Source: Aquabacterium sp. (GTDB taxonomy: Bacteria > Pseudomonadota > Gammaproteobacteria > Burkholderiales > Burkholderiaceae_C). Taken from it: a DNA stretch of 32,628 nt. The stretch spans positions 1 through 32,628 of the forward strand of contig JAKLLB010000049.1 in the NCBI GenBank assembly GCA_023150345.1, given 5' to 3'. The stretch's first letter is position 1, and each line of letters begins with the position of its first letter. The notes below the pieces were generated by a model. It was not told where the DNA came from. It worked only from the letters and a program-made list of their open reading frames with translations, and made no database searches. Both the position numbers and the translations under genes were made by a program. Below are positions 4,098-25,305 of the stretch, one piece after another.

Positions 4098-4189
4098 GGA
4101 AAGGTGGCAGAGTGGTCGAATGCACCGGATTCGAAATCCGGCGTACGGGTTCTCCCGTACCGAGGGTTCGAATCCCTCCCTTTCCGCCA
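4098..4189 (+). tRNA. tRNA-Ser (anticodon CGA)
   Basis: The acceptor stem GGAAAGG/CCTTTCC pairs perfectly over seven bases, with discriminator G and an encoded CCA end (4187-4189). The anticodon stem CCGGA/TCCGG encloses the loop TTCGAAA, giving anticodon CGA, which reads UCG serine codons. The T arm is GAGGG-TTCGAAT-CCCTC. A long variable arm (GTACGGG...CCCGTAC) confirms the class II serine-type tRNA. The gene lies between serS and a strong terminator. Confidence 0.97.
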
Positions 4190-4423: not shown

Positions 4424-4465
4424 GCATCCGATAACGTATACATTAATGAATGCGTTATCGGATGC
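4424..4465. promoter_or_regulatory. 13-bp perfect inverted repeat enclosing the first start codon of the operon
   Basis: GCATCCGATAACG (4424-4436) is repeated exactly in inverse orientation at 4453-4465, with a 16-bp spacer. The palindrome GTATAC (4436-4441) sits at the left arm/spacer junction and resembles the GT-N-AC core known for GntR/FCD operators. CATTAATG (4441-4448) is a second small palindrome. The first ATG of the lactonase gene (4446) lies inside the spacer. The site could be the operator of the FCD regulator encoded by the second gene, or, if transcribed, an RNA hairpin with the start codon in its loop. That it is regulatory is inferred; the symmetry is seen directly. Confidence 0.7.
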
Positions 4466-5441
4466 CCCAATGGGCCTGCCACTGGATCCGGGACGGCTGT
4501 CCTGGTGGGGCGAGTCACTGGTGCGCCCCGAGTGCGTGCTCGCGACGGCGGACGGCAGCATCTATACCGCCGACTGGCGAGGTGGTGTCGTCCATCGGGC
4601 AGCCGACGGCCGGCAGCGACTGATACGAGGCGAATTGCCCAGCGGGCAGCCCGTACAGCCCAACGGAATCGCGCTGATGGCCGACGGCACGTTCCTGGTC
4701 GCTCACCTTGGCGCCCATGACGGCGGCGTGTGGCGCTTGACCCGAGACGGTGAAGTGACACCCTGGTTGCGCGCAGTCGATGGTGTCGACCTTCCGCCGA
4801 CGAACTTCGTGCTGTCGGACGCTCAAGGCAGGGTCTGGGTCACGGTCAGTACTCGGCACAGGCCCCGCGCTGCGGCATATCGGGGCGATGTCGCCGACGG
4901 GTTCATCATCCGCGTCGACGGGCGGGGCGCCGAGATCGTGGCCGACGGACTGGGCTACACCAACGAAGTCGCCATCCATCCCGATGGAACCTGGCTGTAC
5001 GTCAACGAGACGTTCTCGCGCTGCCTGTCGCGCTTCGCCCTGAGGCCCGACGGCTCGCTGGGTCCGAAGGAGGTCGTGGTTCGCTTCGGCATCGGAACCT
5101 ATCCGGACGGGCTGGCCTTCGACGAGGCGGGTCACGTGTGGGTGGTCTCGATCGTCAGCAACCGAGTGCTGCGCGTTGCGCCCGATGGTCGGGTGGTGAC
5201 GTGGCTCGAGGACTGCGACGCGACCCATCTGGAATGGACCGAAGCGGCCTGGGCCGCGGGCACGATGGGCCGCGAGCATCTCGACACGACGGCGAGTCGC
5301 TGTCTGCGCAACATCTCCAGCATCGCCTTCGGCGGGCCCGATCGGCGTACCGCCGTACTCGGGTGCCTGCTCGGCGATCGGCTGGCCACCTTCAATGCGC
5401 CGGTTGCCGGTGCAATGCCCGCCCACTGGAACTACCGATGA
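4446..5441 (+). CDS. SMP-30/gluconolactonase/LRE family lactonase
   Basis: A 331-residue six-bladed beta-propeller hydrolase of the SMP-30/gluconolactonase family, which opens sugar lactones to aldonic acids in a metal-dependent way. Family features include VRPECVLATADG near the N-terminus, PNGIALMADG, TNEVAIHPDG (Asn173) and YPDGLAFDEAGHVWV (Asp221). The family's metal ligands (a Glu, two Asn, an Asp) have counterparts at these points. No signal peptide, so a cytoplasmic role is expected. ATG 4446 lies inside the inverted repeat and has no Shine-Dalgarno; ATG 4470 (MGLPLDPG) is the alternative and also lacks one. As first gene of the operon it probably hydrolyses the lactone made by the Gfo/Idh enzyme or imported from outside. 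The substrate is unknown. Confidence 0.85.
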   Translation: MNALSDAPMGLPLDPGRLSWWGESLVRPECVLATADGSIYTADWRGGVVHRAADGRQRLIRGELPSGQPVQPNGIALMADGTFLVAHLGAHDGGVWRLTRDGEVTPWLRAVDGVDLPPTNFVLSDAQGRVWVTVSTRHRPRAAAYRGDVADGFIIRVDGRGAEIVADGLGYTNEVAIHPDGTWLYVNETFSRCLSRFALRPDGSLGPKEVVVRFGIGTYPDGLAFDEAGHVWVVSIVSNRVLRVAPDGRVVTWLEDCDATHLEWTEAAWAAGTMGREHLDTTASRCLRNISSIAFGGPDRRTAVLGCLLGDRLATFNAPVAGAMPAHWNYR

Positions 5442-6118
5442 ATTCCGCACCTTCCGCTCCAGTTCCATCCCTGGTCGACGCCGCCTACGAGCAGATCCGA
5501 TCGCGCATCCTGGACAACGTCTGGCCGCCTGGCCATCGCGCGCTCGAGCAGGAAGTGGCCCTCGCTCTGGGGATGAGCCGCACCCCGGTGCGCGAGGCGC
5601 TGGTGCGGCTGCAGGTCGAGGGGCTCGTCGAGGTCATTCCGAGGCACGGCATGCGCGTGCTGCCCGTGTCGCCGATGGACATGGGCGAGATCTACGAGAT
5701 CCTCACAGCACTGGAGTGCATGGCAGCCGAGCGTCTGGCCGCCCAGCACCCAGATGAACAGTCTCTTGCCCCGTTGATTCAAGCCACCGACGCGATGGAT
5801 CGTGCGTTGCTCGCTGATGACCTCGATGCCTGGGCCCGTGCGGATGAGCAGTTTCACGCCCAGCTCGTCGAGCAGGCTGGCAATCGAAGGTTGCAGGCGA
5901 CGGTGTTGAACCTCTGGGACCGCGCACATCGCGCACGCATGGTCACGCTGCGGCTGCGCCCAAAGCCGGTTGACTCGACACGAGAGCACCGGGAGCTGGT
6001 CGAGCGGCTGCTCGCGGGCGACGCCGAGGGCGCTGCTCGGGTCAATCGTGCCCATCGCCTGCGCGCGAGCCGCGAGTTGATCCAGATTTTCGAGCGCTAT
6101 CGCCTGGCGCAGTTGTGA
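5438..6118 (+). CDS. GntR family transcriptional regulator, FCD (FadR-C) subfamily
   Basis: A 226-residue regulator. The N-terminal winged helix (residues about 12-75) includes GHRALEQEVALALGMSRTPVREALVRLQVEGLVEV, a standard GntR recognition helix. The C-terminal FCD ligand domain (about 85-215) shows the metal-binding pattern: Asp-EQF-His, then TREHREL, then NRAHRLRASRE. FCD regulators usually bind a pathway acid and release DNA. The ATG overlaps the lactonase stop (ATGA), so it is made with the operon and probably autoregulated through the inverted repeat at 4424-4465. I rejected longer in-frame starts because they lie inside the lactonase gene. Confidence 0.93.
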   Translation: MNSAPSAPVPSLVDAAYEQIRSRILDNVWPPGHRALEQEVALALGMSRTPVREALVRLQVEGLVEVIPRHGMRVLPVSPMDMGEIYEILTALECMAAERLAAQHPDEQSLAPLIQATDAMDRALLADDLDAWARADEQFHAQLVEQAGNRRLQATVLNLWDRAHRARMVTLRLRPKPVDSTREHRELVERLLAGDAEGAARVNRAHRLRASRELIQIFERYRLAQL

Positions 6119-6128
6119 GCGGCCAGCC

Positions 6129-7202
6129 ATGAAGACCTACGACATCGCGGTGCTGCCGGGCGACGGCATCGGCGTCGAAGTGACGGACGCAGCCCTTGCG
6201 ATCCTGCGCGCCGTGGAGCCTCGCATTGCTCGCCGCTTGGTCACCACGGTGCATCCCGCTGGAGCAGCGCACTACCAGGCCACGGGCGCAGCACTTCCGC
6301 CCTCTACCCTGGACGCGTGCCGGCGCGCCGACGCTGTCTTGTTTGGCGCCATGGGCTTGCCCAATGTGCGCGCGACCGACGGCACCGAGATCATTCCTCA
6401 ACTCGATCTGCGCTTCGCACTCGACCTGTACGCCGGTGTGCGCCCGGTGCGGACCTGGCCCGGTCTGCCTGTACCGCTCGCCGATCCCCGCGCGGCGCAG
6501 ATCGACCTCGTGCTCGTGCGCGAGAGCACGGAAGGGCTGTTCCATGCCCGCGGTCGCGGCCGGGTCGAGGGTGAGGCGGCTTACGACACGATGAAGATCT
6601 CGCGAGCCGGCACCGGCCGTGTGTGCGACTTCGCACTCGCGCTGGCTGCCAAGCGCCAGGCGCAGGGCCGCCCAGGCAAGGTCACCAACGTCGACAAGGC
6701 CAATGTCTTCACGTCCATGGCGTACTGGCGCAGCGTCTTCATCGAGCGTGCCCAGGCCTGGCCCGCGGTCGCCGTCGAGCACGTCTATGTGGATGCGATG
6801 GCCCTGAACCTCGTCCTGCAACCCTGGCGCTACGACGTCCTGGTCACCGAGAACATGTTCGGCGACATCCTGTCCGATCTCATCGCTGCGCTCGTGGGCG
6901 GCATGGGCATGGCGCCCTCGGCCGACCTCGGTGACAACCACGGCCTGTTCCAGCCTGCGCACGGGACGGCGCCCGACATTGCCGGCCGTGGCATCGCCAA
7001 CCCGAGTGCCATGGTGCTGTCGCTGGCCATGATGCTCGACTGGCTGGCCGACCGACATGCGGATGCTGCCCTGGCCGACGGTGCGCGGGCGATCGAGTCT
7101 GCATTGCACGGGGCGCTGGTCGACGCCGGCGTTCGCACGCGGGATCTGGGTGGCACCGGCACCACTGCCGATGTCGTGCAAGCCGTTCGGGAGCGCTTGT
7201 GA
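6129..7202 (+). CDS. Isocitrate/isopropylmalate dehydrogenase family protein
   Basis: A 357-residue NAD-type beta-hydroxyacid oxidative decarboxylase of the LeuB/TtuC/DmlA family. It starts YDIAVLPGDGIGVEV. The substrate loop reads VRESTEGLF, unlike the leucine-biosynthesis pattern (VRELTGG), so it is not a typical LeuB. Catalytic Lys190 (TNVDKAN), metal ligands Asp222, Asp246 and Asp250 (ENMFGDILSD) and the NAD loop AHGTAPDIAGRGIANP are all intact. Known relatives act on tartrate, D-malate or similar 2-hydroxy acids. In this operon it may oxidise, and perhaps decarboxylate, a sugar acid. It starts 10 bp after the regulator gene and overlaps the next gene (GTGA). Confidence 0.9.
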   Translation: MKTYDIAVLPGDGIGVEVTDAALAILRAVEPRIARRLVTTVHPAGAAHYQATGAALPPSTLDACRRADAVLFGAMGLPNVRATDGTEIIPQLDLRFALDLYAGVRPVRTWPGLPVPLADPRAAQIDLVLVRESTEGLFHARGRGRVEGEAAYDTMKISRAGTGRVCDFALALAAKRQAQGRPGKVTNVDKANVFTSMAYWRSVFIERAQAWPAVAVEHVYVDAMALNLVLQPWRYDVLVTENMFGDILSDLIAALVGGMGMAPSADLGDNHGLFQPAHGTAPDIAGRGIANPSAMVLSLAMMLDWLADRHADAALADGARAIESALHGALVDAGVRTRDLGGTGTTADVVQAVRERL

Positions 7203-8236
7203 CAGGCGCACGCGTTGCGTTGGTGGGTGCCGGCTACTTCGCGCCGTTTCACGTTGCGGCATGGCACGCGTGTGGCGCGCATGTCGTCGCCATCGCGGAC
7301 CGAGATGCGACACGGGCGAGGGCGCTGGCAACGGCCTGGGGCGTTTCCATCGCGACGGACGACGCGCACGAACTGCTGCGGCGCACGTCGGCCGATCTTC
7401 TCGACCTGGTCGTGCCGCCAGAGTCGCAGGGCGCGTTGGTGCGGGCCGCGATGGAGCGCGGCCTGCCGACCATCTGCCAGAAGCCCTTCGGTCGCGACCT
7501 GGTCGAGGCAACCGACCTTGCGCAACTGGCCGATCGCAGTGGCGTCGCACTGGTGGTGCACGAGAACTTCCGCTTCTCGCCGTGGTACCGCGAATGCCGG
7601 CGGCTGGTCGACTCAGGCGTGCTTGGCCAGCTCTATGGCGCTGCGTTTCGGTTGCGCCCGGGCGACGGCCAGGGTGAGTCCGCCTATCTGGACCGGCAAC
7701 CCGCGTTTCGCACCATGCCGCGCCTGTTGGTGCGCGAGACGGCCGTCCACTTCATCGATGTGTTCCGCTACCTGCTGGGCGAGGTGCGCGCAGTGACGGC
7801 GCGGCTGCGCCGCCTGAATCCCGTCATCGCAGGCGAGGACGCAGGCGTCGTGATCTTCGAATTCGACGACGACCGCACAGCGGTGTTCGACGGCAACCGA
7901 CTGGCCGAGCACCCCGCAAGCGACCTGCGTCGCACGATGGGCGAGATGTGGCTGGAGGGCGAGCGCGGCGTGCTGCGCCTGGACGGCGAGGCTCGGCTGT
8001 GGTTCAAGCCCTTCGGCGGCGACGAGCGTGAGCACACCTATGCCCGCGGCGCTGCCGGCCCCTTCGGCGGTGCTGTCGCATCACTGCAGGCGCACGTGCT
8101 GGCGCACCTGCGCGACCCGTCGCAACCGTTGGAGAACGCTGCGCGCGACTACCTCGCCAACCTTCGCGTGCAGGACGCGATCTACGAATCGCACCACAAG
8201 GGCGCACGCGTGGCGCTCGATGCCGATGCGAGCTGA
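7199..8236 (+). CDS. Gfo/Idh/MocA family NAD(P)-dependent oxidoreductase
   Basis: A 345-residue protein with an N-terminal Rossmann fold (RVALVGAGYFAPFHVAAW, then VVAIADRD) and a C-terminal Gfo/Idh/MocA alpha/beta domain. The conserved EKP motif appears as QKP with Lys95, the usual proton-relay lysine. The HxxD catalytic pair is His184/Asp187 (AVHFIDVF). Members oxidise sugars, often aldoses to lactones, or sugar alcohols. Next to an SMP-30 lactonase, the simplest role is aldose to aldonolactone oxidation. The GTG start overlaps the previous stop (GTGA). The substrate is unknown. Confidence 0.9.
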   Translation: MTGARVALVGAGYFAPFHVAAWHACGAHVVAIADRDATRARALATAWGVSIATDDAHELLRRTSADLLDLVVPPESQGALVRAAMERGLPTICQKPFGRDLVEATDLAQLADRSGVALVVHENFRFSPWYRECRRLVDSGVLGQLYGAAFRLRPGDGQGESAYLDRQPAFRTMPRLLVRETAVHFIDVFRYLLGEVRAVTARLRRLNPVIAGEDAGVVIFEFDDDRTAVFDGNRLAEHPASDLRRTMGEMWLEGERGVLRLDGEARLWFKPFGGDEREHTYARGAAGPFGGAVASLQAHVLAHLRDPSQPLENAARDYLANLRVQDAIYESHHKGARVALDADAS

Positions 8237-8258
8237 CCACCCTGACCAGGAGACCACC

Positions 8259-9254
8259 ATGAACGCCAAGACCCCTTCAACCGTTGCCCTGGCGCTTGCG
8301 GCCTTGCTCGCCGCGCCGACATCGAACGCGCAGACCGTGCTGAAGTTCAGCCACACCGACCAGCAGGAGGGGGGGCGCCAGAGTGCGGCCATGCTGTTCG
8401 CGCGCAAGGTCGAGGAACTGACGCAGGGGCGCTACAAGGTCCAGGTCTATTGCTGCAGCCAGCTCGGCAACGATCCGAAGAACATCGAGCAGCTTGCACT
8501 GGGCGGCATCGACTTCACGGTGTCGTCCACCGGCTCGTATGCGCCGCACGTGCCCACGCTCAACCTGATGATGCTGCCGTATCTGGTTGACGACTTCGAG
8601 CAGGGCTGGAAGCTCTACGACGAGTCGAAGTGGCTGCGCACTCAGTTCGACAAGGCACCGGCCAAGGGCTTTCGCTTTCTGGCCACCTGGGAAGCGGGCT
8701 TCCGCAACATGACGACCAAGGATCCCCTGGGCTCGCCGGCCGATGCCAAGGGCAAGAAGCTGCGCACCTTCCCGAACGAAATGATGCGCTGGACCCTCGA
8801 GGCTGTCGGCTTCAGCATCCAGATCATGCCGTTGCCCGAGGTCTACCTGGCCATTCAGCAGGGCGCCGTGGCGGGCCAGGAGAACCCGGTCGACACGATC
8901 TTCTCGAACAAGTTCTACGAAGTCGCGCCGCACGTCACGCTGACCCAGCACGTCTACAGCCCGATTCCGCTGACCATCTCGGAAAAGACCTGGCAGAAGC
9001 TGGCGCCGGCCGACCAGGCGGCGGTCGTCGAGGCGGCTCGCATCGCCGCGCAGCACAGCCGCCAGTTCGTCCGGGCCATCGAGGACAAGCAGCTCGCGGC
9101 CATGGCCGCCAAGGGCGCCAAGGTCGCCCGACCGGCGGTGGGGCCCTTCCGTGAAGCGGTGCAACCCGTTTACGCCAAGGCCAAGGACAAGTACGGCGCC
9201 GATGTCGACGCGCTGCTCGCCGACGCGAAGCTCGTGCGCAAGGCGGTCAAGTAG
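8259..9254 (+). CDS. TRAP transporter substrate-binding protein, DctP type
   Basis: A 331-residue periplasmic binding protein. The signal peptide spans about residues 1-24 (cleavage after SNA). The DctP fold follows: LKFSHTDQQEGG, GGIDFTVSSTGS, then GKKLRTFPNE and QQGAVAGQENPVDTI. Arg169 matches the conserved arginine that clamps the carboxylate of the ligand, so the cargo is probably an acid such as an aldonate. A good ribosome site (AGGAG, 8248-8252) lies just before ATG 8259. Two adjacent cysteines (VYCCSQLG) near residue 65 are unusual for a periplasmic receptor. It is followed by the matching membrane subunits. Confidence 0.94.
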   Translation: MNAKTPSTVALALAALLAAPTSNAQTVLKFSHTDQQEGGRQSAAMLFARKVEELTQGRYKVQVYCCSQLGNDPKNIEQLALGGIDFTVSSTGSYAPHVPTLNLMMLPYLVDDFEQGWKLYDESKWLRTQFDKAPAKGFRFLATWEAGFRNMTTKDPLGSPADAKGKKLRTFPNEMMRWTLEAVGFSIQIMPLPEVYLAIQQGAVAGQENPVDTIFSNKFYEVAPHVTLTQHVYSPIPLTISEKTWQKLAPADQAAVVEAARIAAQHSRQFVRAIEDKQLAAMAAKGAKVARPAVGPFREAVQPVYAKAKDKYGADVDALLADAKLVRKAVK

Positions 9255-9264
9255 GTCCGCGCCC

Positions 9265-9783
9265 ATGCCCGCAACTTGGCTCGAACCGCTGCCGGCGGCG
9301 CCCTGGCCCGTGCGCGTCGTCGGCCGCATCGTCGACTGGAGCGTCATTGCGATGGGCGCCGGCATGACGGCGCTCGTCTTCCTCAACGTCAGCCTGCACC
9401 TCCTGGGTCGTGACCTGGCCTGGGTGACCGAACTGGGTGAGCTGCTGATGGTGTGGGTGACGTTCCTGGGCGGCGCCTGCGCCGCGCAGCGCGGCATGCA
9501 CATGACCATCACCGAGTTCATCGACAAGCTGGGCACGCATCACCGTCGCTGGGCCGACGCCGCGGTGCAGTTGCTCAGCCTGGTCGTGCTCGTCGTGCTG
9601 GTGCGCTACGGCTGGGCGCTGGTGCAGGGCAACTGGGGCAATGAGCTCACAGTCCTCGAGTGGCCGATGGCCATCCAGTACATGGGCATGGCGATCGGCG
9701 TGTCGCTGATGGCCGTCTTTGTCGCCTGGGATCTTGCGCAGATCGTGCGCGGCATCCCGCGCGACCGCCGCTACCCCAGCTGA
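9265..9783 (+). CDS. TRAP transporter small permease, DctQ type
   Basis: A 172-residue inner-membrane protein with four hydrophobic segments (residues about 24-46, 58-75, 98-118 and 138-160). It has the DctQ features WVTELGELLMVWVTFLGGA and RRGMHM-like text (QRGMHMTITEFID). It pairs with the large permease that follows and starts 10 bp after the receptor gene. Confidence 0.93.
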   Translation: MPATWLEPLPAAPWPVRVVGRIVDWSVIAMGAGMTALVFLNVSLHLLGRDLAWVTELGELLMVWVTFLGGACAAQRGMHMTITEFIDKLGTHHRRWADAAVQLLSLVVLVVLVRYGWALVQGNWGNELTVLEWPMAIQYMGMAIGVSLMAVFVAWDLAQIVRGIPRDRRYPS

Positions 9784-9792
9784 GACCGCGCC

Positions 9793-11082
9793 ATGCTTGC
9801 CCTGACCCTGTTCGCGGTGTTCTTTGTCGTGGCACTGGCTGGGGTGCCGCTGCTGATCGCGCTGCTGGCCACCACCTTCGGGATCATCGTCGCCGCGGGT
9901 CTGGGGCATCCGCTGGAAACGATCGTGCTGTCGTTCATCGGCGGCGTCGAGCCGTTCATCCTGCTGGCCGTGCCGCTGTTCATCTTCGCCGGGGAGTTGC
10001 TGGCGCAGGGCGGTGTGGGCAAGCGCATCGTCGAGTTTGCGCGCGTGCTGTTCGGCTGGTTGCCCGGTGGCCTGGGGGTCGTGACGGTGATGAGCTGCAC
10101 GATGTTCGGCGGTGTGTCGGGCTCGGCCATCGCCGATACCGCTGCGATCGGCTCGCTGGTCATCCCCGCCATGGTGGCGCGTGGCTACTCGCGCGGCTTC
10201 GCCGCCGCGCTGCTGGCGGTGGCCGGCACGATCGCGCTGCTCATGCCGCTGTCGATCCCGTTCCTCGTCTATGCCTTCATCTCGGGCGTCTCGATGCGCA
10301 GCCTGTCGATGGCAGGACTGTTGCCCGCCATCGCCTCGGCGCTCGCACTGGCGGCGGTGTGTGTCTGGCAGGGCCGGCGCACCGGGGTCGATCGAGGCGG
10401 CGAGCGCAGCACGCCGGCGCAGATCTGGGCCGCTACGCGGGCGGCAGGCCCCGCATTGGCGATGCCGGTCATCATCATTGGTGGGATTTGGAGCGGGCTG
10501 TTCACACCCAGCGAGTCGGCGGCCATCGCCGTCGTCTACGGCCTGGTCGTCTCGCTGTTCTACTACCGCGATCTCGACTGGCGGCGCATCCCGCAGCTGA
10601 TGCTCAGTGCCTTCGTCACCAGTGCCACGGTGATGCTGGTGATCGGCGCCACCGGGGCGCTGGCGTGGCTCATCACCGTCGAGCAGGTGGCGGCGCAGAT
10701 GGCGGCCTGGGTGCAGGTGGTGGCCACGCAGCCGTGGATCTTCCTCGCGTTGTTCAACATTTGCCTGCTGCTGCTGGGGGTGTTCATCGAGCCGCTGCCG
10801 GCCATGCTGCTGTCGGCGCCGCTGTTCCTGCCGCTGGCCCGGCACTTCGGCATGGACATGGTGCACGTCGGCGTCGTCATGACCGCCAACCTCGCCATTG
10901 CGCTGTACACGCCGCCGGTCGGTGGCACCTTGTTCGTCGCCGCCAAGCTCGCCCGTGTGGGCATAGGCGAGATCTCGCGGCACCTGGGCGCACTGATGGC
11001 GGCCACCATCACCGTCGTGCTGCTGGTGACCTACGTGCCCGCGCTTTCCCTTTGGTTGCCGCGTCTGCTTCACGGGGGTTGA
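9793..11082 (+). CDS. TRAP transporter large permease, DctM type
   Basis: A 429-residue multi-spanning inner-membrane protein, the sodium-coupled transport subunit of the TRAP system. It is hydrophobic throughout with about a dozen membrane helices. Family motifs include GVPLLIALLATTFG, FIFAGELLAQGGVGKRIVEFA, MFGGVSGSAIADTAAIGS and the C-terminal YTPPVGGTLFVAAKLA. Normal length. It completes the DctPQM set and starts 9 bp after DctQ. Confidence 0.95.
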   Translation: MLALTLFAVFFVVALAGVPLLIALLATTFGIIVAAGLGHPLETIVLSFIGGVEPFILLAVPLFIFAGELLAQGGVGKRIVEFARVLFGWLPGGLGVVTVMSCTMFGGVSGSAIADTAAIGSLVIPAMVARGYSRGFAAALLAVAGTIALLMPLSIPFLVYAFISGVSMRSLSMAGLLPAIASALALAAVCVWQGRRTGVDRGGERSTPAQIWAATRAAGPALAMPVIIIGGIWSGLFTPSESAAIAVVYGLVVSLFYYRDLDWRRIPQLMLSAFVTSATVMLVIGATGALAWLITVEQVAAQMAAWVQVVATQPWIFLALFNICLLLLGVFIEPLPAMLLSAPLFLPLARHFGMDMVHVGVVMTANLAIALYTPPVGGTLFVAAKLARVGIGEISRHLGALMAATITVVLLVTYVPALSLWLPRLLHGG

Positions 11083-11091
11083 GGTCCGTCC

Positions 11092-11376
11092 ATGCATTGC
11101 ATCACCGTTCGTTTCGAGATCCGTCCTGGCTGGGAGCAGGCCTTTCGGGCGGCGGTCGTCGCCAATGCCCGGCAGTCGCTGCACAGCGAGCCCGGCTGCC
11201 GGGTCTTCGATGTCGGCGTCGACGCGACCGGCCACGCCTTCTTCCTCTACGAGCTTTATGACGACGAGGCTGCATTTGCCGCCCATCTGCAGACGACGCA
11301 CTTCAAGGCCTTTGATAGTGAGGTCGCGCCTTGGGTCCTGAGCAAGGCCGTCCACGCCTGGAGCCGACTGGAGTGA
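11092..11376 (+). CDS. ABM-domain protein (antibiotic biosynthesis monooxygenase / LsrG-like)
   Basis: A 94-residue single-domain ferredoxin-like dimer-forming protein. It has the family pattern CRVFDVGVD, YELYDDEAAFAAHLQTTHFKAF and His70. The family contains quinol monooxygenases (YgiN) and also LsrG, which isomerises a phosphorylated keto sugar (phospho-AI-2). Sitting between the transporter and the DUF1537 kinase, an LsrG-like isomerase role is plausible here, but the sequence alone does not decide between these. GAGGT lies just before the ATG. Confidence 0.85.
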   Translation: MHCITVRFEIRPGWEQAFRAAVVANARQSLHSEPGCRVFDVGVDATGHAFFLYELYDDEAAFAAHLQTTHFKAFDSEVAPWVLSKAVHAWSRLE

Positions 11377-11416
11377 GCGCGTGCCCGCCAGCCATGCCGC
11401 ACGCGACGGATACGCC

Positions 11417-12694
11417 ATGAGTCTGCGCCTGGGCTGCATTGCCGACGACACCACCGGCGCCACCGACATCGCGAGCAGCCTCGTCGGCGCGGGGCTGCGC
11501 GTTCAGCTGGTGCACGGGCTGACCCCGGGGCCAGATCCCGACACGGCCGACGCGATCGTCGTCGCGTTGAAGTCGCGCACGGCGCCTGTCATGCAGGCGG
11601 TTGAGGAGTCGCTGGCAGCGGCTCGCTGGCTGCGCGCGCGGGGCGCACGGCAACTCGTGTTCAAGATCTGCTCAACCTTCGACTCGACACCGCACGGCAA
11701 CATCGGCCCGGTCGCCGATGCCCTGCGCGAGCTGACCGGGGCGAGCCGGGTCGTCGTTGCCCCGGCGTTGCCGGTGAACGGACGAACGGTGTACCAAGGG
11801 CACCTGTTCGTCGGCACGGACTTGCTCAGCGACAGCCCGATGCGCCTGCATCCACTCACGCCGATGACCGATGCCAACCTGGTTCGCCTGCTGCAGGCGC
11901 AGGTCGGGCCGGACCTGGCAGTCGGGCGCCTGCCGCGCGCCGTGACGCACGGCGGCCCGGACGCCGTTCACGGGCACCTGGATGCGCAGGCTGCCGGCTA
12001 CGTCATCGCCGATGCCATCGACGACTTCGACCTGGCTGCACTCGCGCGTGCCGTGCATGGCGCGCCGTTGCTGGTTGCATCTTCAGGGCTGCCCGCCTAC
12101 CTGCCGCAGGCCTGGGGATGGACCGCGCGGCCCGATGCCGCCGTGCTGCCGCGCGCCGGCGGGCGTGCCGCGATCGTCGCCGGCAGTTGCTCGGCGGCCA
12201 CACAGGCTCAGCTGGCGCACTTCCTGCAGGCAGGCGGTGCCGGGCTGGCCATCGATCCGCTGCGCATCGGGTCCGTGGCGCAAACCGTGGCCGACGTCAT
12301 CGCCTGGTTCAATGCGCAGCCGGTCGAACGTGCCGCGCTGGTCTACGCCACCGCTTCGAGCGAGGCGGTGCAGCGCGTCCAGCAGGCACTCGGCGTCGAG
12401 CGAGCCGGGCTCGTCGTCGAAGACACGATGAGCTCGATCGCGCGGGGCCTCGTGGCCGGCGGCGTACGCCGCCTGGTTGTCGCCGGTGGCGAGACATCGG
12501 GTGCGGTCCTGCGTGCGCTGGGTGTGGCCAGCCTGCGCATCGGCGGCCCGATCGACCCCGGTGTGCCGTGGTGCCATGGGGTCGCCGAGGGTTGCGGCGG
12601 TGTTGGTGTGCACCTGGCGCTGAAGTCGGGCAACTTCGGCGGCACCGACTTCTTCGATCGCGCGTTCGCGTGCCTCGACCGGGATTGCGCATGA
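11417..12694 (+). CDS. DUF1537 four-carbon acid sugar kinase (OtnK-like)
   Basis: A 425-residue two-domain kinase of the DUF1537 family. It phosphorylates C4 (sometimes C5) acid sugars or their keto forms, for example 3-oxo-tetronate in OtnK. The N-terminal substrate domain starts RLGCIADDTTGATDIASSL and contains FKICSTFDSTPHGNIG and APALPVNGRTVYQGHLFVG. The C-terminal nucleotide domain ends with VAGGETSGAVLRALGV. All these motifs are intact, so it looks active. I chose ATG 11417 because conservation begins there; an in-frame GTG at 11381 would add 12 unrelated residues. The stop overlaps the aldolase start (ATGA). Confidence 0.92.
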   Translation: MSLRLGCIADDTTGATDIASSLVGAGLRVQLVHGLTPGPDPDTADAIVVALKSRTAPVMQAVEESLAAARWLRARGARQLVFKICSTFDSTPHGNIGPVADALRELTGASRVVVAPALPVNGRTVYQGHLFVGTDLLSDSPMRLHPLTPMTDANLVRLLQAQVGPDLAVGRLPRAVTHGGPDAVHGHLDAQAAGYVIADAIDDFDLAALARAVHGAPLLVASSGLPAYLPQAWGWTARPDAAVLPRAGGRAAIVAGSCSAATQAQLAHFLQAGGAGLAIDPLRIGSVAQTVADVIAWFNAQPVERAALVYATASSEAVQRVQQALGVERAGLVVEDTMSSIARGLVAGGVRRLVVAGGETSGAVLRALGVASLRIGGPIDPGVPWCHGVAEGCGGVGVHLALKSGNFGGTDFFDRAFACLDRDCA

Positions 12695-13356
12695 ATCGCA
12701 CCATCCATGCGAAGGCGGCCGAGGAGATCTGTCGCATCGGCCGATCGCTGTTCGACCGTGGCTACGTGCACGCGACGGCCGGCAACATCAGTGTGCGGCT
12801 GGACGAGGGCATCCTGATCACGTCGACCGATGCGTGCCTGGGCCACATCCAACCGAGTGAACTGGCGTGGGTCGACGCCGCGGGTGTGCAGCAAGGGGGG
12901 TTGCCGGCCAGCAAGTCGTTGCGCCTGCATCGTCGCATCTACGATGCCGACCCCGCTGCTGGCGCGATCATCCATACGCACAGCACGCATTTGGTCGCGA
13001 CGACCCTGCGCGGCGTGTGGACGCAGGCCGACATCCTGCCGCCCATCACGCCCTACTACGTGATGAAAGTCGGCCACGTGCCGCTGGTTCCCTATCATCG
13101 CCCGGGTGATCCGGTCGTCGGCGACCACGTGGTGACGTTGATCGGCGAACACGCCGAGCGCGGAACGCCGCTGCGCGCGGTGATGCTCGATCGGCTGGGG
13201 CCGCAGGTCTGGCACCGCACGCTGGGCGAAGCGGCTGCGGTTCTCGAAGAACTGGAGGAGACCGCGCGGGTGTGGGCGCTGGCCGGGCGTGATGTGTCGC
13301 CGCTGCCCGAGGCACGCCTGGCGGAGTTGCACACCGCCTTCGGTGCGCGATGGTAG
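12691..13356 (+). CDS. Class II aldolase/adducin homologue (OtnC-like) with altered active site
   Basis: A 221-residue protein that aligns along its length with OtnC (3-oxo-tetronate 4-phosphate decarboxylase): GYVHATAGNISVRL, STDACLGHIQPSEL, ITPYYVMKVGHVPLVPYHRPGD and EELEETARVWAL. Two zinc-binding histidines are present (His95 and His97 in IIHTHSTH). The catalytic Glu of the family (SKE motif) is Ser76 here (SKS), and the third zinc His (ANHGP motif) is Leu169 (DRLGP). Both changes are clear in the nucleotide sequence. It may be a pseudo-enzyme, use different chemistry, or bind metal with another residue such as His175. It ends the operon, 9 bp from the convergent GNAT gene. Confidence 0.88.
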   Translation: MNRTIHAKAAEEICRIGRSLFDRGYVHATAGNISVRLDEGILITSTDACLGHIQPSELAWVDAAGVQQGGLPASKSLRLHRRIYDADPAAGAIIHTHSTHLVATTLRGVWTQADILPPITPYYVMKVGHVPLVPYHRPGDPVVGDHVVTLIGEHAERGTPLRAVMLDRLGPQVWHRTLGEAAAVLEELEETARVWALAGRDVSPLPEARLAELHTAFGARW

Positions 13357-13365
13357 GTCGTCGCC

Positions 13366-14238
13366 TCAGCCCAGCACCCGCTGCCGCAGCCGCGCCGTGC
13401 GTTCGAAGAACGCGGGGTCGAGCACCATGCCGGCTACCACCAGGTCGCTGCGGCGGCCGTCGGGTTCGCGCAGGTAGCCGCGCAGGGTGCCTTCGACCTC
13501 GAAGCCCAGTGCCACAGCGGAGTCGATGGCGCGCTGGTTCTCGGGGTAGTAGTGGGCGGTGAGACGCTCGATGCGGGCGCGTTCCGCCAGGAAGCCGAAC
13601 ATCAGGTGCGCGGCCTCGGCATAGGCGAAGGGGCCGTGGTCGCCGTGGATGCCGATCAGGCACTCGGCGCGGCGTTGGCGCAGCGAGATGTTGACGATGC
13701 TGACGAAGCCGGCCTTGGTGCTGCCGACCTCGATCGTCCAGTGCAGCGCCTGCGATTCCGACGGGATCGCGGCCTGTTCGTTGCGCAACAGGTCTGCCAG
13801 TGCGGCGTCGTCGGCCGGCAGGGGAGCAGCGCCGCGATGGAAGTGGCGCATGAACTCGGCGTCGGCCCAGCAGCGCCGCACCAGTTCGATGTCGTCGGGT
13901 CCGCGACGCACCAGGCGCACGCGCGGGCCCTGCAGCGGCGCCCACCAGAAGGGCTCGTGTTGCCAGGCAATCTGACGCAAGGCCGGGTCGGGTATGCGGG
14001 TCAGCGCGCGCGCGAGCAGCGCGCGCGCTGCAGCGTACTGGCCGCCGCGCCGCAGGTGTTGCAGGTGGGCGGTCAGGCGTGTGGGGCTGTGGCCGCCGGC
14101 TGTTGCCGCGCCGCCGGGCGCACCCGGAGCTGTCCGCGGCTCGGGCGCGGCCTGCGCCGTGTCGCCGCGGTCGGTCGTGTCACCGGCCTTGCCGCGATCG
14201 GTGCCGGTGGCGACAGGGTTGACAGGTGGGCGGTTCAT
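13366..14238 (-). CDS. GNAT family N-acetyltransferase with long N-terminal extension
   Basis: A 290-residue protein. Residues about 115-285 form a GNAT domain of the RimJ/RimL-like type: GPRVRLVRRGPDDIELV, HWTIEVGSTKAGFVSIVNIS, ECLIGIHGDHGPFAYAEAAHLMFGFLA and YPENQRAIDSAVALGFEVEGTLRGYL. This would transfer an acetyl group to an amine on a protein or small molecule. Residues 1-55 are rich in Pro, Thr, Gly and Ala and look disordered. Residues about 58-90 form a short helical region (LTAHLQHLRRGGQYAAARALLARAL). This extension is longer than usual for the family. The substrate is unknown. Divergent from the Spy-like gene. Confidence 0.85.
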   Translation of the reverse strand: MNRPPVNPVATGTDRGKAGDTTDRGDTAQAAPEPRTAPGAPGGAATAGGHSPTRLTAHLQHLRRGGQYAAARALLARALTRIPDPALRQIAWQHEPFWWAPLQGPRVRLVRRGPDDIELVRRCWADAEFMRHFHRGAAPLPADDAALADLLRNEQAAIPSESQALHWTIEVGSTKAGFVSIVNISLRQRRAECLIGIHGDHGPFAYAEAAHLMFGFLAERARIERLTAHYYPENQRAIDSAVALGFEVEGTLRGYLREPDGRRSDLVVAGMVLDPAFFERTARLRQRVLG

Positions 14239-14347
14239 GGCAAGCAGGCGTTCGGTCGGAGTGCAGGGCGTTTGGCGGTCTGCGCGCAACCCGCGCATCC
14301 TTCGGCTGGATGGCGATCGTAGCCGACGTGCCGCGCGACCCGCCCCC

Positions 14348-18662: not shown

Positions 18663-20081
18663 TCAGCGGCTGTATCCGCCGCGCCGCGGGCCCGCGGGCT
18701 TGCCGTGGCCGCCCTCACGCGAACCGTGCGGGCCGCGCGGGGCGCCGAACGACTTGCCGGCAGGGCGGCCACCGCCGCGCGGCGGCGCACCCCGGCGGTC
18801 GCCAGGGCGGAACGCCGGGCGCTCCTGAGGCGGCGGGGCCTTGGGCTCGAGGCCGGGCACCACGGCCGCAGCAATGGGCTGGGTGGTGAAACGCTCGATG
18901 CGGCGGATCATGCCGACGTCGCGGCGCTCGGCCAGCGTGATTGCCAGGCCGGTGCGGCCGGCGCGGCCCGTGCGGCCGATGCGGTGAACGTAGTCTTCGG
19001 CCTTCATCGGCAGGCCGTAGTTGATGACGTGGCTGATGGTGGGGACGTCGATGCCACGGGCGGCGACGTCGGTGGCCACCAGCACGCGAAGCTGGCGCTG
19101 GCGCAGGCCCTGCAGCACACGGTTGCGGCGGCCCTGGGGCATGCCGCCGTGCAGGGCGGCCACGCTGTGGCCGATTTCACCGAGCTTCCAGGCCAGCTCG
19201 TCGGCATCGCGCTGGGTGCTGGTGAAGACGACGGCCTGCTCCACTGCGCGGTCGGCCAGCAACTGCTCGAGCAGCGCATGCTTGTGGTGCAGGCTGTCGG
19301 CCCAGTGCAGGCGCTGCTCGATCTGCGTGTGGGTGTCGGTGTGCGTATCGACGGCGATGCGCTGCGGTTCACGGGTGAGCTCGCGCGCCAGGCCGCCGAC
19401 GTTGCCCGCGAAGGTGGCGCTGAACATCAGCGTCTGGCGCTGCGTCGGCAGCGCCTGGGCGATGGTGGTGATGTCGTCGATGAACCCCATGTCGAGCATG
19501 CGGTCGGCTTCGTCGAGCACCAGCAGTTCCACCTGGGCCAGCACGGCGGCGCCGGTGTTCATCAGGTCGAGCAGGCGGCCCGGGGTGGCGATCAGCACGT
19601 CCAGCGGGCTGCGCAGAGCCTTGAGTTGGGCGTGGTAAGGCACGCCACCCACCACATGCGCCACGCGCAGACCCTGCACGCCGTAGCCATACTGGGTGCA
19701 GGCGCGGGAAACCTGAAGCGCCAGTTCACGCGTGGGCGCCAGCACCAGCACGCGCGGACCGCTCGGTTGGCCCTTGGCGCGCTTCTTGGCCGGGTCCAGG
19801 CGTGCAGTCAGGATGCGCTGCAACGCCGGCCATACGAAGGCGGCGGTCTTGCCGCTGCCGGTTTGCGAGGACACCAGCAGGTCGGCACCGGTCAGGGCGA
19901 CGGGCACGGCGCGGGCCTGGACGTCGGTGGGAGCGGGGTAGCCGGCGTGGCGGATGGACTTGAGGATCTCGGGCGCGAGGCCCAGCTTCTCGAAGCCGGA
20001 ATCGGCTTGGGCGGCGGCGGGGGCGGCGCCGGGGATGAAGTCGTCGGCCTGCGAGGGCTCGGCGTGGAAGTCGAAACTCAT
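18663..20081 (-). CDS. rhlE: DEAD-box ATP-dependent RNA helicase, RhlE type
   Basis: A 472-residue RNA helicase. It has the Q motif (FEKLGL...GYPAPTDVQ), Walker A SQTGSGKT, motif Ia APTRELALQ, DEAD (VLDEADRMLDMGF), SAT (FSATF), ARGIDVP and the HRIGRTGRAG motif VI. The C-terminal 75 residues are a disordered Arg/Gly/Pro tail, typical of RhlE proteins that bind RNA and help ribosome maturation or mRNA decay, often in the cold. DTHTDTHTQ at the domain linker is an odd His/Thr/Asp repeat. A long untranslated leader with a hairpin lies upstream. The MATE gene follows in the same direction. Confidence 0.93.
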   Translation of the reverse strand: MSFDFHAEPSQADDFIPGAAPAAAQADSGFEKLGLAPEILKSIRHAGYPAPTDVQARAVPVALTGADLLVSSQTGSGKTAAFVWPALQRILTARLDPAKKRAKGQPSGPRVLVLAPTRELALQVSRACTQYGYGVQGLRVAHVVGGVPYHAQLKALRSPLDVLIATPGRLLDLMNTGAAVLAQVELLVLDEADRMLDMGFIDDITTIAQALPTQRQTLMFSATFAGNVGGLARELTREPQRIAVDTHTDTHTQIEQRLHWADSLHHKHALLEQLLADRAVEQAVVFTSTQRDADELAWKLGEIGHSVAALHGGMPQGRRNRVLQGLRQRQLRVLVATDVAARGIDVPTISHVINYGLPMKAEDYVHRIGRTGRAGRTGLAITLAERRDVGMIRRIERFTTQPIAAAVVPGLEPKAPPPQERPAFRPGDRRGAPPRGGGRPAGKSFGAPRGPHGSREGGHGKPAGPRRGGYSR

Positions 20082-22164: not shown

Positions 22165-25100
22165 CTAGGTTCGAGCCCCGCCTCTAGAACGAATGCGGGT
22201 TGCCCCCCATGGGCGGCGCATGAGGTGGCGTACCCCCTGCAGGACGTCGTCGACGTAGGTGAACACCACCGGGATCACCAGCAGGCTGAGAAAGGTGCTG
22301 GTGATGAGGCCGCCGATGACCACGATGGCCATGGGCGCGCGGAAGCTCGGATCGGCGCCGAAGCCCAGTGCGATGGGCATCATGCCCGCGCCCATCGCGA
22401 TGGTGGTCATGACGATGGGTCGTGCACGCTTGCCGCAGGCATCGAGCAGGGCGTGCCAGCGGTCGAGCCCACGCTCGCGCCGTGCGAGGACGACGTAGTC
22501 CACCAGCAGGATGGAGTTCTTGGTGGCCACGCCCATCAGCATGATCATGCCGATGAGCGAGGGCATCGAAAGCGCCGTGCGGGTAGCGAACAGCGCGAGG
22601 AACGCACCTGGGATGGACAGCACCAGCGCGGCCAGGATGGTGACGGGCTGGATGAAGTCCTTGAACAGCAGCACCAGCACGGCGTAGATGCACAGCACGC
22701 CGGCGGCCATGGCGACAGCAAATCCGCTGAAGAGGTCGGCCATGGCCTCCGCGTCGCCCACCGCAGCCTTGCGCACGCCGGGCGGCAGGTTGCGCAGGCT
22801 GGGCAAGGCGTCCGCTTGCGCTTCCACCGTGCCCAGCGGTACGCCGTTGAGCTCGATCTCGAAGTTCACGTTGCGCCGCCGGTCGTAGCGTTCGATCTGC
22901 GCCGGCCCGGCTTCGATCGACAGGCTGGCCACGTTGCCCAGCATCACGGGACCCCGCGCGCCGGGCACCGGCAGGCGGGCCAGCAGTTCGAGGTCTTCGC
23001 GTGCGCTGGCGGGCAGCCGCACCACCACGGGCAATTGGCGCTGGGCCAGGTTGATCTTGGCCAGGCCCTGGTCGTAGTCGCCGGCCGTGGCCACCCGCAG
23101 CACGTCGGCCAGCGTGGCCGCTGTGACCCCCAGATCGGCCATGCGGGCGTGGTCGGGACGCACGATGAGTTCGGGCCTCTGCAGGCTGCTGCTGGAGACC
23201 ACAGCGCCCACGCCCGGCAGGCTGCGCAGCTCCTGCTCCACGCGGCGTGCGTGCTCGGCCAGCACGGCGCCGTCGTCGCCCGAGATGGCGAGGATGAACT
23301 TCTCGTTCGAACCTGCGAAGCCGACCTTGATGCGCGCACCGGGAAGCTCGGACAGCGCCTGCCGCAGTTCGCCCTCGATGGCCTGCTTCGAGACACCGGG
23401 TCGCTCGCCGCGCGGACTCAGGCTGATGGTGAGCGCGGCGCGGCGCGGGTCGCCGCCGGCCTGCGGCGCGAAGGGATCGCCGCCGGCGGTGCCGCCGCCC
23501 ACCGCGGTGTACACCAGACGCACCTGCGGGTGCCGGGCCACCACCTGGCGTGCGCGTTCGGCCAGGGCCACGGTGTCGCTCAAGCGTGCGCCCGGTGGCA
23601 GCGTGAGGGTCACCTGGGTCTGTGACAGGTCGTCCGGCGGGATGAAGCCGGTGGGCAGCAGCGGCACCAGCATGAACGAGCCGACGAAGAACACCGCCGT
23701 GGCCGCCAGGGTCGCCAGCCGATGGCGCAGGCACCAGGCGGCCCAGCCCTCGTAGACCTGCAGCCAGGCCGGCGTACGACCTGCATCGACCACCGGCTTG
23801 AGCAGATAAGCCGCCATCATCGGGGTGAGCATGCGCGCCACGACCAGCGAGAAGAACACGGCGATGGCCGCCGTCCAGCCGAACTGCACGAAGAACCGGC
23901 CGACGATGCCCGTCATGAACGCGGTGGGCAGGAACACGGCGATCAACGTGAAGGTGGTGGCGATGACCGCGAGACCGATCTCGTCGGCCGCTTCCATCGC
24001 CGCGTCGTAGGGCCGCTTGCCGTCGCGCAGGTGGCGCATGATGTTCTCGATCTCGACGATGGCGTCGTCGACGAGGATGCCCACCACCAGCGACAACGAG
24101 ATCAGCGTCACCCCGTTGAGTGTGAAGCCCAGGAGGTACATCGCCGCGAACGTGGGGATGGCCGCCAGCGGCAGCGCGGCGGCGGCCACCAGCGTGGCGC
24201 GCCAGTCGCGCAGGAACAGCCACACCACCAGCACCGCCAGCGCGCCGCCCTCCCAGAGCAGCATCATCGAGCTGTCGAAGCCCTCCTTGGCAGGGGCAAC
24301 GAAGTCGAAGGCCTCGGTGGTGGTGATGTCGGGGTGCGCCACCTTCAACTCGACCAGAGCGGCACGCACGCCGGCTGCCACGTCCAGCTCGCCTGCGCCG
24401 CGTGAGCGGCTGACCTCGAAGGCCACCACGGGCTTGCCGTCCAGGAAAGCCGCCTGGCGGCGCTCGGCAGTGGTGTCGAGCACGCGTGCCACCTGGTCGA
24501 GCCGGATGCGGCGCCCGTCGGACAGCGCGATTTCCATCGCTGCCAGCTGCTGCGCCGAGCCCACGGCCGCCAGCGTGCGCACCGACTGCTCGATGCCGCC
24601 GATGTCGGCCCGCCCGCCCGCGGCATCCTGCTGCGCCAGGCGCAACTGGCGCGAGATGTCGGCGGCGCTGGCGTTCAGCGCCAGCAGGCGCGCCGGGTCG
24701 AGTTCCACGCGCACTTCGCGCGTGAGGCCGCCCACTCGACTGACAGCGCCCACGCCCTTGACCGCCAGGAGGCGCTTGGTGAGCGTGTCGTCGATGAACC
24801 ACGACAGCGCTTCTTCGTCCATGCGTGTCGAGGCCACCGTGTAGGCCAGAATCGGCTGGCTGGCGAGATCGGTCTTGGTGATGACCGGATCGCGCAACTC
24901 GCCGGGCAGGTCGGCGCGCACCCGCGAGACGGCCGCACGCACGTCATCGACAGCCTCCTGCACGGGTTTCTCGAGCCGGAACTCGACGCTGATGATGGCC
25001 AGCCCGTCGCCCAGCGTGGTGTAGATGTGCTTGACGCCCTGCACGGTGGCGATGGCGTTCTCGATCTTGCGGGCGACGTCGTTCTCGAGCTGGTTGGGCG

Positions 25101-25305
25101 ACGCGCCCGGCAGTGCGGCCTGCACCGACACCATGGGCAGGTCGATGTCGGGGAAGTTCTGGATCTTCATGGCCTTGAACGCCAGCAGGCCTGCCAGCGT
25201 GAGGAGCATGAAGAACAGCACCGACGGGATCGGGTTGCGGATCGACCACGCCGAGACGTTCAGGCCACCGGGTGCCCCGGGGCCGGGGGCGGGTGCGCCG
25301 CTCAC
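22165..25305 (-). CDS. RND efflux pump inner-membrane transporter (AcrB/HAE1-like)
   Basis: A 1046-residue resistance-nodulation-division pump with the usual internal duplication: TM1 near residues 25-45, two large periplasmic loops and eleven further helices. The proton-relay aspartates are in TM4 (VVGILVDDAIVEIEN) and the relay lysine is in TM10 (GVATKNSILLVDY). It exports hydrophobic or amphiphilic compounds together with the adaptor encoded just upstream. GTG start overlapping the adaptor stop (GTGA). No outer-membrane channel gene is adjacent, so it presumably uses a TolC-type protein from elsewhere. Heavy-metal (CusA-type) export is less likely because the overall text matches the hydrophobe exporters. 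Confidence 0.93.
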   Translation of the reverse strand: MSGAPAPGPGAPGGLNVSAWSIRNPIPSVLFFMLLTLAGLLAFKAMKIQNFPDIDLPMVSVQAALPGASPNQLENDVARKIENAIATVQGVKHIYTTLGDGLAIISVEFRLEKPVQEAVDDVRAAVSRVRADLPGELRDPVITKTDLASQPILAYTVASTRMDEEALSWFIDDTLTKRLLAVKGVGAVSRVGGLTREVRVELDPARLLALNASAADISRQLRLAQQDAAGGRADIGGIEQSVRTLAAVGSAQQLAAMEIALSDGRRIRLDQVARVLDTTAERRQAAFLDGKPVVAFEVSRSRGAGELDVAAGVRAALVELKVAHPDITTTEAFDFVAPAKEGFDSSMMLLWEGGALAVLVVWLFLRDWRATLVAAAALPLAAIPTFAAMYLLGFTLNGVTLISLSLVVGILVDDAIVEIENIMRHLRDGKRPYDAAMEAADEIGLAVIATTFTLIAVFLPTAFMTGIVGRFFVQFGWTAAIAVFFSLVVARMLTPMMAAYLLKPVVDAGRTPAWLQVYEGWAAWCLRHRLATLAATAVFFVGSFMLVPLLPTGFIPPDDLSQTQVTLTLPPGARLSDTVALAERARQVVARHPQVRLVYTAVGGGTAGGDPFAPQAGGDPRRAALTISLSPRGERPGVSKQAIEGELRQALSELPGARIKVGFAGSNEKFILAISGDDGAVLAEHARRVEQELRSLPGVGAVVSSSSLQRPELIVRPDHARMADLGVTAATLADVLRVATAGDYDQGLAKINLAQRQLPVVVRLPASAREDLELLARLPVPGARGPVMLGNVASLSIEAGPAQIERYDRRRNVNFEIELNGVPLGTVEAQADALPSLRNLPPGVRKAAVGDAEAMADLFSGFAVAMAAGVLCIYAVLVLLFKDFIQPVTILAALVLSIPGAFLALFATRTALSMPSLIGMIMLMGVATKNSILLVDYVVLARRERGLDRWHALLDACGKRARPIVMTTIAMGAGMMPIALGFGADPSFRAPMAIVVIGGLITSTFLSLLVIPVVFTYVDDVLQGVRHLMRRPWGATRIRSRGGART

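Follow-up and report, generated by a model that had tools for sequence, protein, structure and literature searches.

A Ten-Gene Operon on an Aquabacterium Contig

We analysed a stretch of 32,628 nucleotides from Aquabacterium sp. (assembly GCA_023150345.1, contig JAKLLB010000049.1), called the window hereafter, in which ten genes follow one another on the forward strand between positions 4446 and 13356. Each of the ten is backed by Pfam. They encode a lactonase, a regulator, an enzyme resembling isopropylmalate dehydrogenase (IPMDH), a Gfo/Idh/MocA oxidoreductase (Gfo), a TRAP transporter, a protein of the antibiotic biosynthesis monooxygenase (ABM) family, a DUF1537 kinase (OtnK) and OtnC. 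With a probability of roughly 0.6, we read this run as a catabolic operon that yields 3-oxotetronate independently of LtnD, OtnI and PdxA2, followed by conversion to dihydroxyacetone phosphate by OtnK and OtnC. The features of the operon are:

4431-4446, no strand: predicted operator, 16-bp palindrome ATAACGTATACATTAA (consensus TTAAYGTATACRTTAA), by conservation
4446-5441, forward: lactonase of the SMP-30/gluconolactonase type (Pfam SGL, 3.7e-28; start at 4446 or 4470 possible)
5438-6118, forward: GntR-family regulator with an FCD domain (Pfam GntR, FCD)
6129-7202, forward: IPMDH-like dehydrogenase, Phe-type (Pfam Iso_dh, 7e-92)
7199-8236, forward: Gfo/Idh/MocA oxidoreductase (Pfam)
8259-9254, forward: TRAP solute receptor DctP (Pfam, 9e-72)
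9265-9783, forward: TRAP small permease DctQ (Pfam)
9793-11082, forward: TRAP large permease DctM (Pfam)
11092-11376, forward: ABM protein, LsrG-like, predicted partner isomerase/tautomerase (Pfam ABM)
11417-12694, forward: OtnK, 3-oxo-tetronate kinase, DUF1537 (NCBIfam NF043035; alternative GTG start at 11381)
12691-13356, forward: OtnC (Pfam Aldolase_II; NCBIfam NF043034, 217 bits, below the cut-off of 250)

With the chosen starts, the lactonase/GntR, IPMDH/Gfo and OtnK/OtnC junctions each overlap by 4 bp. The remaining intergenic gaps measure 9-22 bp, apart from 40 bp between the ABM and OtnK genes, or 4 bp with the GTG start. A sequence-only reading had named these ten genes in this order, on one strand and with gaps of at most 40 bp, which the gene coordinates and Pfam bear out; it had counted four overlapping junctions, of which we find three.

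The order lactonase-GntR-IPMDH-Gfo-DctP-DctM-ABM on one strand recurs in 21 fetched loci; two of these duplicate another, which leaves 19 other loci, with dehydrogenase identities of 55-96%, and OtnK and OtnC lie downstream in some of them. Given this conserved order, the ten-gene operon is real and not a product of chance. Judged by listings, no description of the gene combination or its substrate was found in the open-access literature, nor an already characterised version of the order.

The Kinase and OtnC Point to 3-Oxotetronate

The kinase reaches 504 bits with the equivalog-level OtnK model (cut-off 350); the model for D-threonate kinase, with its cut-off of 450, gives it 121 bits. OtnC belongs to the Aldolase_II type by Pfam, which, as PMC12540250 states, acts on 3-oxo substrates and not on 2-oxo ones. 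We counted both observations in favour of a route ending in 3-oxotetronate.

Genome-wide tests were run on the assembly to which the window belongs (4.58 Mb, 94% complete). It contains a single DUF1537 kinase and one copy of PdxA, taken as the vitamin B6 one. No OtnI match was found in it at E≤0.001, and its best LtnD match scores 205 bits, under the cut-off of 350; DenD is not among the ten operon genes, and its model (NF043036) was not searched genome-wide. By the published pathway, a DenD route likewise would need OtnI. The standard OtnI-based route was thus not found elsewhere in the assembly, DenD not having been searched, and the earlier claim of a kinase and an OtnC homologue without LtnD, OtnI and PdxA2 holds on this scale. 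The OtnI search applied to 14 control genomes gave one match above the cut-off and eight genomes with matches, E. coli among them.

We also searched for OtnI, OtnK and LtnD in 32 hand-picked genomes carrying the operon-type dehydrogenase, own genome included and Bradyrhizobium-type carriers excluded. OtnK was found in all 32, above the cut-off in 31 and split over two contigs in G019. It lies within the fetched locus in 17 carriers and elsewhere, over the cut-off, in the remaining 15 (15/15); at the rate seen in relatives, the latter would have a probability of about 1e-5, although most of the 15 come from other groups and kinship is ignored. The relatives in question are 60 genomes, the own and 59 sampled ones, eight of which have the operon-type dehydrogenase (G000, G012, G016, G019, G025, G029, G037 and G045). 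OtnK is present in 8/8 of these, five of them having it inside the operon, versus 24/52 of those without the operon (p=0.005). Counting cut-off pieces on both sides gives 8/8 versus 26/52 (p=0.008); counting them on neither gives 7/8 (p=0.053).

Four genomes have OtnK but neither LtnD above the cut-off nor any OtnI match exceeding 135 bits (cut-off 325): the own genome (G000), its near relative G019 (84% complete), Paraglaciecola (G073, locus L066) and Amylibacter (G077, locus L079). Conversely, in L164 the module follows ltnD-denD-otnK-otnC-otnI, and in L159 it stands beside ltnD-denD-otnK-otnC, on one strand in both cases. Because the module adjoins the standard genes in L159 and L164 and OtnK occurs in the four genomes without LtnD and OtnI at those levels, it is most likely the module itself that supplies 3-oxotetronate, and its starting acid would be neither L-threonate nor D-erythronate.

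The same loci bear on another explanation, by which the IPMDH-like enzyme takes the place of LtnD or DenD, oxidising L-threonate or D-erythronate at C2, and the ABM protein that of OtnI. It would suit the own genome, which has no LtnD above the cut-off and no OtnI, and LsrG, the characterised relative of the ABM protein, is a keto-ol isomerase. However, LtnD, DenD and OtnI beside GntR-IPMDH-TctC-ABM in L164 would then be redundant, and we regard this substitution as quite unlikely. A role of the ABM protein as a plain OtnI substitute is weakened by the same locus, which keeps both.

The Dehydrogenase and the ABM Protein Form the Core

The dehydrogenase scores under the cut-off of every NCBIfam model that it matched. 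It has Phe138 (VRESTEGLF) where LeuB-like (RELTG-IY) and tartrate-dehydrogenase-like (RENTEGEY) enzymes have Tyr, a residue kept in the own genome's LeuB-like and tartrate-dehydrogenase-like paralogues (L117, L118). We take this position to be that of the catalytic Tyr139 in Thermus IPMDH. In such enzymes, decarboxylation is followed by protonation of the enol through the Tyr, and the carboxylates are bound by Arg residues; our literature search on Tyr and Arg roles in IPMDH-type enzymes found no supporting paper. Among 21 aligned Phe-type members, R95, R105, R131, Phe138, K190, D222, D246 and D250 are invariant.

A GTDB contig scan for the dehydrogenase kept the best 80 of 591 loci. To compare neighbourhoods, 117 dehydrogenases were collapsed to 113 distinct ones: 83 Phe-type, 29 Tyr-type (21 LeuB-like by motif) and one unread by motif (L080, itself with Phe). 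Genes in relatives were called as model matches on open frames, with models built partly from the same loci, and the thresholds for neighbours were 250 bits for DUF1537 and 300 bits for Gfo. Near the 83 Phe-type dehydrogenases, ABM was found 41 times, Gfo 44 times, both 33 times and neither 31 times, and a related GntR gene was near 49. None of the 29 Tyr-type relatives has ABM, Gfo or OtnK nearby above the thresholds; weaker matches there are DUF1537 with 80-172 bits (L029, L030, L031, L032) and Gfo with 64 bits (L105). ABM is present at 24 of the 25 dehydrogenases having OtnK nearby.

Gfo is absent near ABM in eight Phe-type loci; the order is GntR-IPMDH-TctC-ABM in L164 and L169 and IPMDH-TctC-ABM in L171, which opens a contig. 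The core of the gene set is thus the IPMDH-like enzyme with the ABM protein, whereas Gfo and the lactonase are a removable front end. The sequence-only reading had proposed a different route with an aldose-oxidising pair, acting for example on a tetrose or branched pentose; the different route stands, such a substrate is one candidate, but the pair is not its defining element.

The ABM protein is LsrG-like, as judged from its sequence profile and its predicted fold. A profile of 25 members matches LsrG (3qmq) at 5e-16, rank 2 of 21, behind a putative monooxygenase (3f44, 3e-17). The AlphaFold model (pLDDT 97) superimposes on LsrG (2gff) with a TM score of 0.91 at rank 15, other ABM proteins ranking above. 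C36, D40, Y53, E54, H65, H70 and K85 are invariant in the profile, fitting the expectation for an enzyme. Two loci show unusual ABM genes: a double-length gene of 226 residues (L090:4041-4721), and two ABM-like genes in L076 (L076:6981-7813).

Two chemistries suit the core best. In the first, a branched C5 diacid of the malate type, e.g., 2-(hydroxymethyl)tartrate, an oxidised relative of apiose, would be made from a lactol acid by Gfo and the lactonase. The IPMDH-like enzyme would decarboxylate it and release the enediol of the oxotetronate because the Tyr protonating the enol is gone, and the ABM protein would tautomerise this 2,3-enediol to 3-oxotetronate. Loss of CO2 from such a diacid would account for the retention of the Arg residues, the loss of Tyr and the constancy of ABM: all three Arg, together with the Lys and the Asp residues, are invariant, Tyr has become Phe, ABM accompanies nearly every dehydrogenase with OtnK nearby, and it is retained even with OtnI in the same gene run (L164). 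The proposed diacid, however, is not known to be a common nutrient. We hold this version to be possible but rather unlikely.

The second chemistry stays with four carbons throughout, a tetrose being oxidised to a tetronolactone by Gfo and opened to a tetronate by the lactonase, after which the IPMDH-like enzyme would oxidise C3 of D-threonate or L-erythronate and the ABM protein would epimerise C2 of the 3-oxo product. No carbon would have to be lost ahead of OtnC, Phe in place of Tyr suits oxidation without decarboxylation, and the module persists in L159 and L164 alongside LtnD and DenD, so that another acid would be handled. Yet Arg residues of the diacid type, if they bind carboxylates, should drift in such an enzyme and are invariant instead; we rate the all-C4 version as unlikely.

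Phe-type genes without ABM or Gfo nearby include those of L046-L056 and L085, Bradyrhizobium-type and related, several of which adjoin a gene belonging to a zinc alcohol dehydrogenase cluster; the Bradyrhizobium-type genes perhaps represent a second function of the subfamily. Another DUF1537 kinase lies near Tyr-type IPMDH-like genes of relatives, with 175-190 bits in G020, G008 and G002 and in pieces in G023 and G017. All these kinases fall under the OtnK cut-off. The pairing of IPMDH-like enzymes with such kinases may have occurred more than once.

Front End and Transport

An SMP-30 lactonase alone accompanies 32 of the 44 Gfo loci and a metallo-beta-lactamase-type (MBL) hydrolase alone nine; none has both, and three (L065, L067 and L170) have neither. 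The MBL protein is weakly similar to known lactonases (71 bits in L061, AidB cut-off 360) and is presumably a lactonase itself. The exchange of SMP-30 and MBL proteins beside Gfo argues that the product of Gfo is a lactone. L039, which has neither ABM nor Gfo, has two TIM-barrel isomerase-like genes after the transporter.

By sequence and by fold, the closest solved structure to Gfo is 5uhw (27% identity), titled an oxidoreductase with NAD+ and magnesium and nothing further, which we take to be the D-apionate oxidoisomerase. This relative, together with the relationship of the dehydrogenase to tartrate dehydrogenases and the absence of OtnK from 27 of the 52 loci with ABM or Gfo, could suggest a tartrate-type or D-apionate-type pathway with incidental OtnK and OtnC neighbours. 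Set against it are OtnK in every one of the 32 chosen carriers, an operator before ltnD-otnK-otnC in G378, only 109 bits for the kinase with the OiaK model (cut-off 700) and the low identity of Gfo to 5uhw, so that we consider it improbable. Tartrate as the substrate is disfavoured, its oxidation products presumably being of no use to OtnK, and a D-apionate pathway is weakened by the kinase being OtnK-like and not OiaK.

A receptor of the TRAP or the tripartite-tricarboxylate type is near 37 of the 52 ABM/Gfo loci, as would suit the branched diacid, and neither type was found in 15. Also less in keeping with a diacid, the ABC transporter (BPD_transp_2 permease) of Rhizobium L038 and a MalK-type ABC transporter behind an operator in G045 suit neutral sugars. 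The best solved relative of DctP is 4pdd (8.7e-48), which we take to be an erythronate-binding receptor and which would favour the all-C4 version, but sialic-acid receptors are nearly equal (3.7e-46); the solved relatives are thus not decisive for the ligand.

Distribution and Predicted Operator

The gene set is scattered over Burkholderiales, Rhizobiales, Rhodobacterales and gammaproteobacteria, with rearranged versions in alphaproteobacteria and gammaproteobacteria. Counting the own genome, the dehydrogenase is matched at E≤1e-110 in 23 of 399 genomes of the family and at E≤1e-95 in 5 of 369 genomes of the class. Rhodobacterales loci (e.g., L061, L079, L083, L084) have OtnC-OtnK-MBL-ABM-transporter facing IPMDH-Gfo-GntR, and the order in Rhizobium L038 is ABC transporter-GntR-IPMDH-ABM-HAD-ALDH-OtnK-OtnC. 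In L155 and L157, DctM and ABM are separated by a TctC-like gene. Three loci are identical in sequence to named contigs of Burkholderiales: L035 (Hydrogenophaga), L037 (Comamonadaceae) and L036 (Brachymonas). An SDR gene adjoins OtnC in L028.

The palindrome TTAAYGTATACRTTAA, with base counts from 28 sites, stands at the start of many Phe-type IPMDH operons. The copy at 4431-4446 is the sole match with up to two mismatches in the window (0 expected) and the sole place with up to one mismatch in the 4.58-Mb assembly. In 36 chosen carriers, a search allowing one mismatch gave 29 places in 25 genomes, and the reversed pattern occurred in 2 genomes. Matched to loci by hand, 25 of these places, spread over 23 genomes, belong to a Phe-type dehydrogenase operon. 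Of the other four, an exact operator stands directly before ltnD-otnK-otnC in G378, which would put OtnK and OtnC in the regulon in trans; one precedes genes including a DctP-type receptor, ALDH and SDR (G076, L199), one the ABC transporter genes of G045, and the fourth is G068:C10. No site within one mismatch was found in 11 of the 36 carriers, some operons having weaker versions (e.g., L083, L084) and others none that we could see. From this conservation, we infer that the FCD regulator would bind the palindrome and control the operon. The exact operator also occurs in 89 stretches of viral contigs, which we take as chance in a large collection.

By eye, we spotted a perfect 13-bp inverted repeat (GCATCCGATAACG at 4424-4436 and CGTTATCGGATGC at 4453-4465) with the operator and the annotated start codon between its arms; it is missing from the near relative L022. 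Farther out in the window are a tRNA-Ser (CGA) at 4098-4189, about 260 bp ahead of the operon, a GNAT acetyltransferase gene at 13366-14298 on the opposite strand, directly downstream, a DEAD-box helicase gene at 18663-20081, and an RND efflux pair (AcrB-like and HlyD-like) at 22165-26432 on the reverse strand.

Proposed Pathway

A hydroxy-acid would be imported by the TRAP transporter. Should this be a lactol (sugar-aldehyde) acid, Gfo would, judging from the gene families and their co-occurrence, convert it to a lactone, whose ring the lactonase would open. The resulting acid would be oxidised by the Phe-type IPMDH-like enzyme, with or without loss of CO2, and the LsrG-like ABM protein would rearrange the product, be it an enol, a keto-ol or an epimer, to a 3-oxotetronate accepted by OtnK. 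By the known chemistry of their families, OtnK would phosphorylate 3-oxotetronate and OtnC would decarboxylate the product to dihydroxyacetone phosphate. The FCD regulator may act at the conserved palindrome ahead of the operon.

Several observations weigh against an operon that supplies 3-oxotetronate by itself. OtnC is under its cut-off, yet the OtnC beside LtnD and DenD in L159 and L164 likewise scores 215-222 bits. The carriers examined for OtnK were hand-picked, and OtnK was already visible in 17 of these when they were chosen; the background rate is that of the sampled relatives and not of alphaproteobacteria or gammaproteobacteria at large, and kinship was ignored; restricted to operon-bearing relatives without an OtnK of their own in the operon, the comparison is 3/3 versus 24/52 (p=0.11). 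LtnD is above the cut-off in 19 of the 32 carriers and OtnI in 14. OtnI-like matches of 252-311 bits in eleven more carriers, some beside LtnD and OtnK (G071, G072), are probably real OtnI. LtnD stands inside the operon in L034 and under the operator in G378, so that a tetronate may be the product of the module in some hosts. A lactonase-type gene occurs without Gfo in six loci (L039, L044, L062, L076, L130 and L156). The 31 Phe-type dehydrogenases without ABM or Gfo nearby are in part at contig ends, but others, e.g., from Bradyrhizobium, have long flanks, and the subfamily may hold other functions.

For an operon yielding 3-oxotetronate, two chemistries fit best, and we do not choose between them: a branched C5 diacid losing CO2, and oxidation at C3 of a tetronate that is no substrate of LtnD or DenD, with the ABM protein as an epimerase, which needs fewer carbons. 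It is a tentative and rather doubtful proposal that a branched C5 sugar diacid undergoes oxidative decarboxylation by the Tyr-to-Phe relative of IPMDH and that the LsrG-like ABM protein takes over the unstable enediol and protonates it at C2, giving 3-oxotetronate directly. If true, this two-enzyme reaction would open a new way into the OtnK/OtnC route and pair the two enzyme families in a manner new to both. The chemistry of the pair would be new for both families, whose names, isopropylmalate dehydrogenase and antibiotic biosynthesis monooxygenase, can mask a sugar-acid pathway. The gene set offers a defined question, namely which acid is used, a possible reporter in the palindrome with its regulator, and a receptor to screen.

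Comparison With Known Systems

The four-step route for L-threonate and D-erythronate uses LtnD or DenD, OtnI, OtnK and OtnC (Zhang et al., 2016, as cited in PMC12540250 and PMC10580937, the latter of which also gives a Brucella cluster). Like it, the window operon ends with OtnK and an Aldolase_II-type OtnC, leading to dihydroxyacetone phosphate, and genes of the four-step pathway adjoin the module in L159 and L164. Unlike it, the operon and the assembly are without LtnD above the cut-off and without OtnI (DenD not searched genome-wide), and the operon has the Phe-type IPMDH-like enzyme and the ABM protein together with its own regulator and operator. The three-step bypass for L-threonate consists of LtnD, 2-OtnK and 2-OtnC (Guo et al., 2024, cited by PMC12540250). 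The window operon shares with it the absence of OtnI; however, the bypass needs LtnD and a 2-OtnC of the F_bP_aldolase type, whereas the window has no LtnD above the cut-off and its OtnC is of the Aldolase_II type (F_bP_aldolase not searched in the assembly).

The D-threonate pathway consists of DtnK and PdxA2, and PdxA and IPMDH belong to one wider superfamily. A DUF1537 kinase with an oxidising enzyme of that superfamily is therefore common to both systems, but the window has PF00180 and not PdxA, a separate OtnC, and no second PdxA in its assembly. With 3-isopropylmalate and tartrate dehydrogenases, the window enzyme shares the Pfam family and the kept Arg, Lys and Asp positions, but it has Phe for Tyr and falls under the NCBIfam cut-offs. 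The D-apionate pathways, with ApnO and OiaK, likewise combine a Gfo/Idh enzyme with a DUF1537 kinase for a branched sugar acid; the window kinase is OtnK-like and not OiaK, and the IPMDH-like enzyme and the ABM protein are extra. The ABM protein resembles LsrG, the phospho-AI-2 isomerase, in size, fold and the FDV, YE-Y and H-TPH motifs, but it is 25-29% identical to it and occupies another operon and another position in a pathway.

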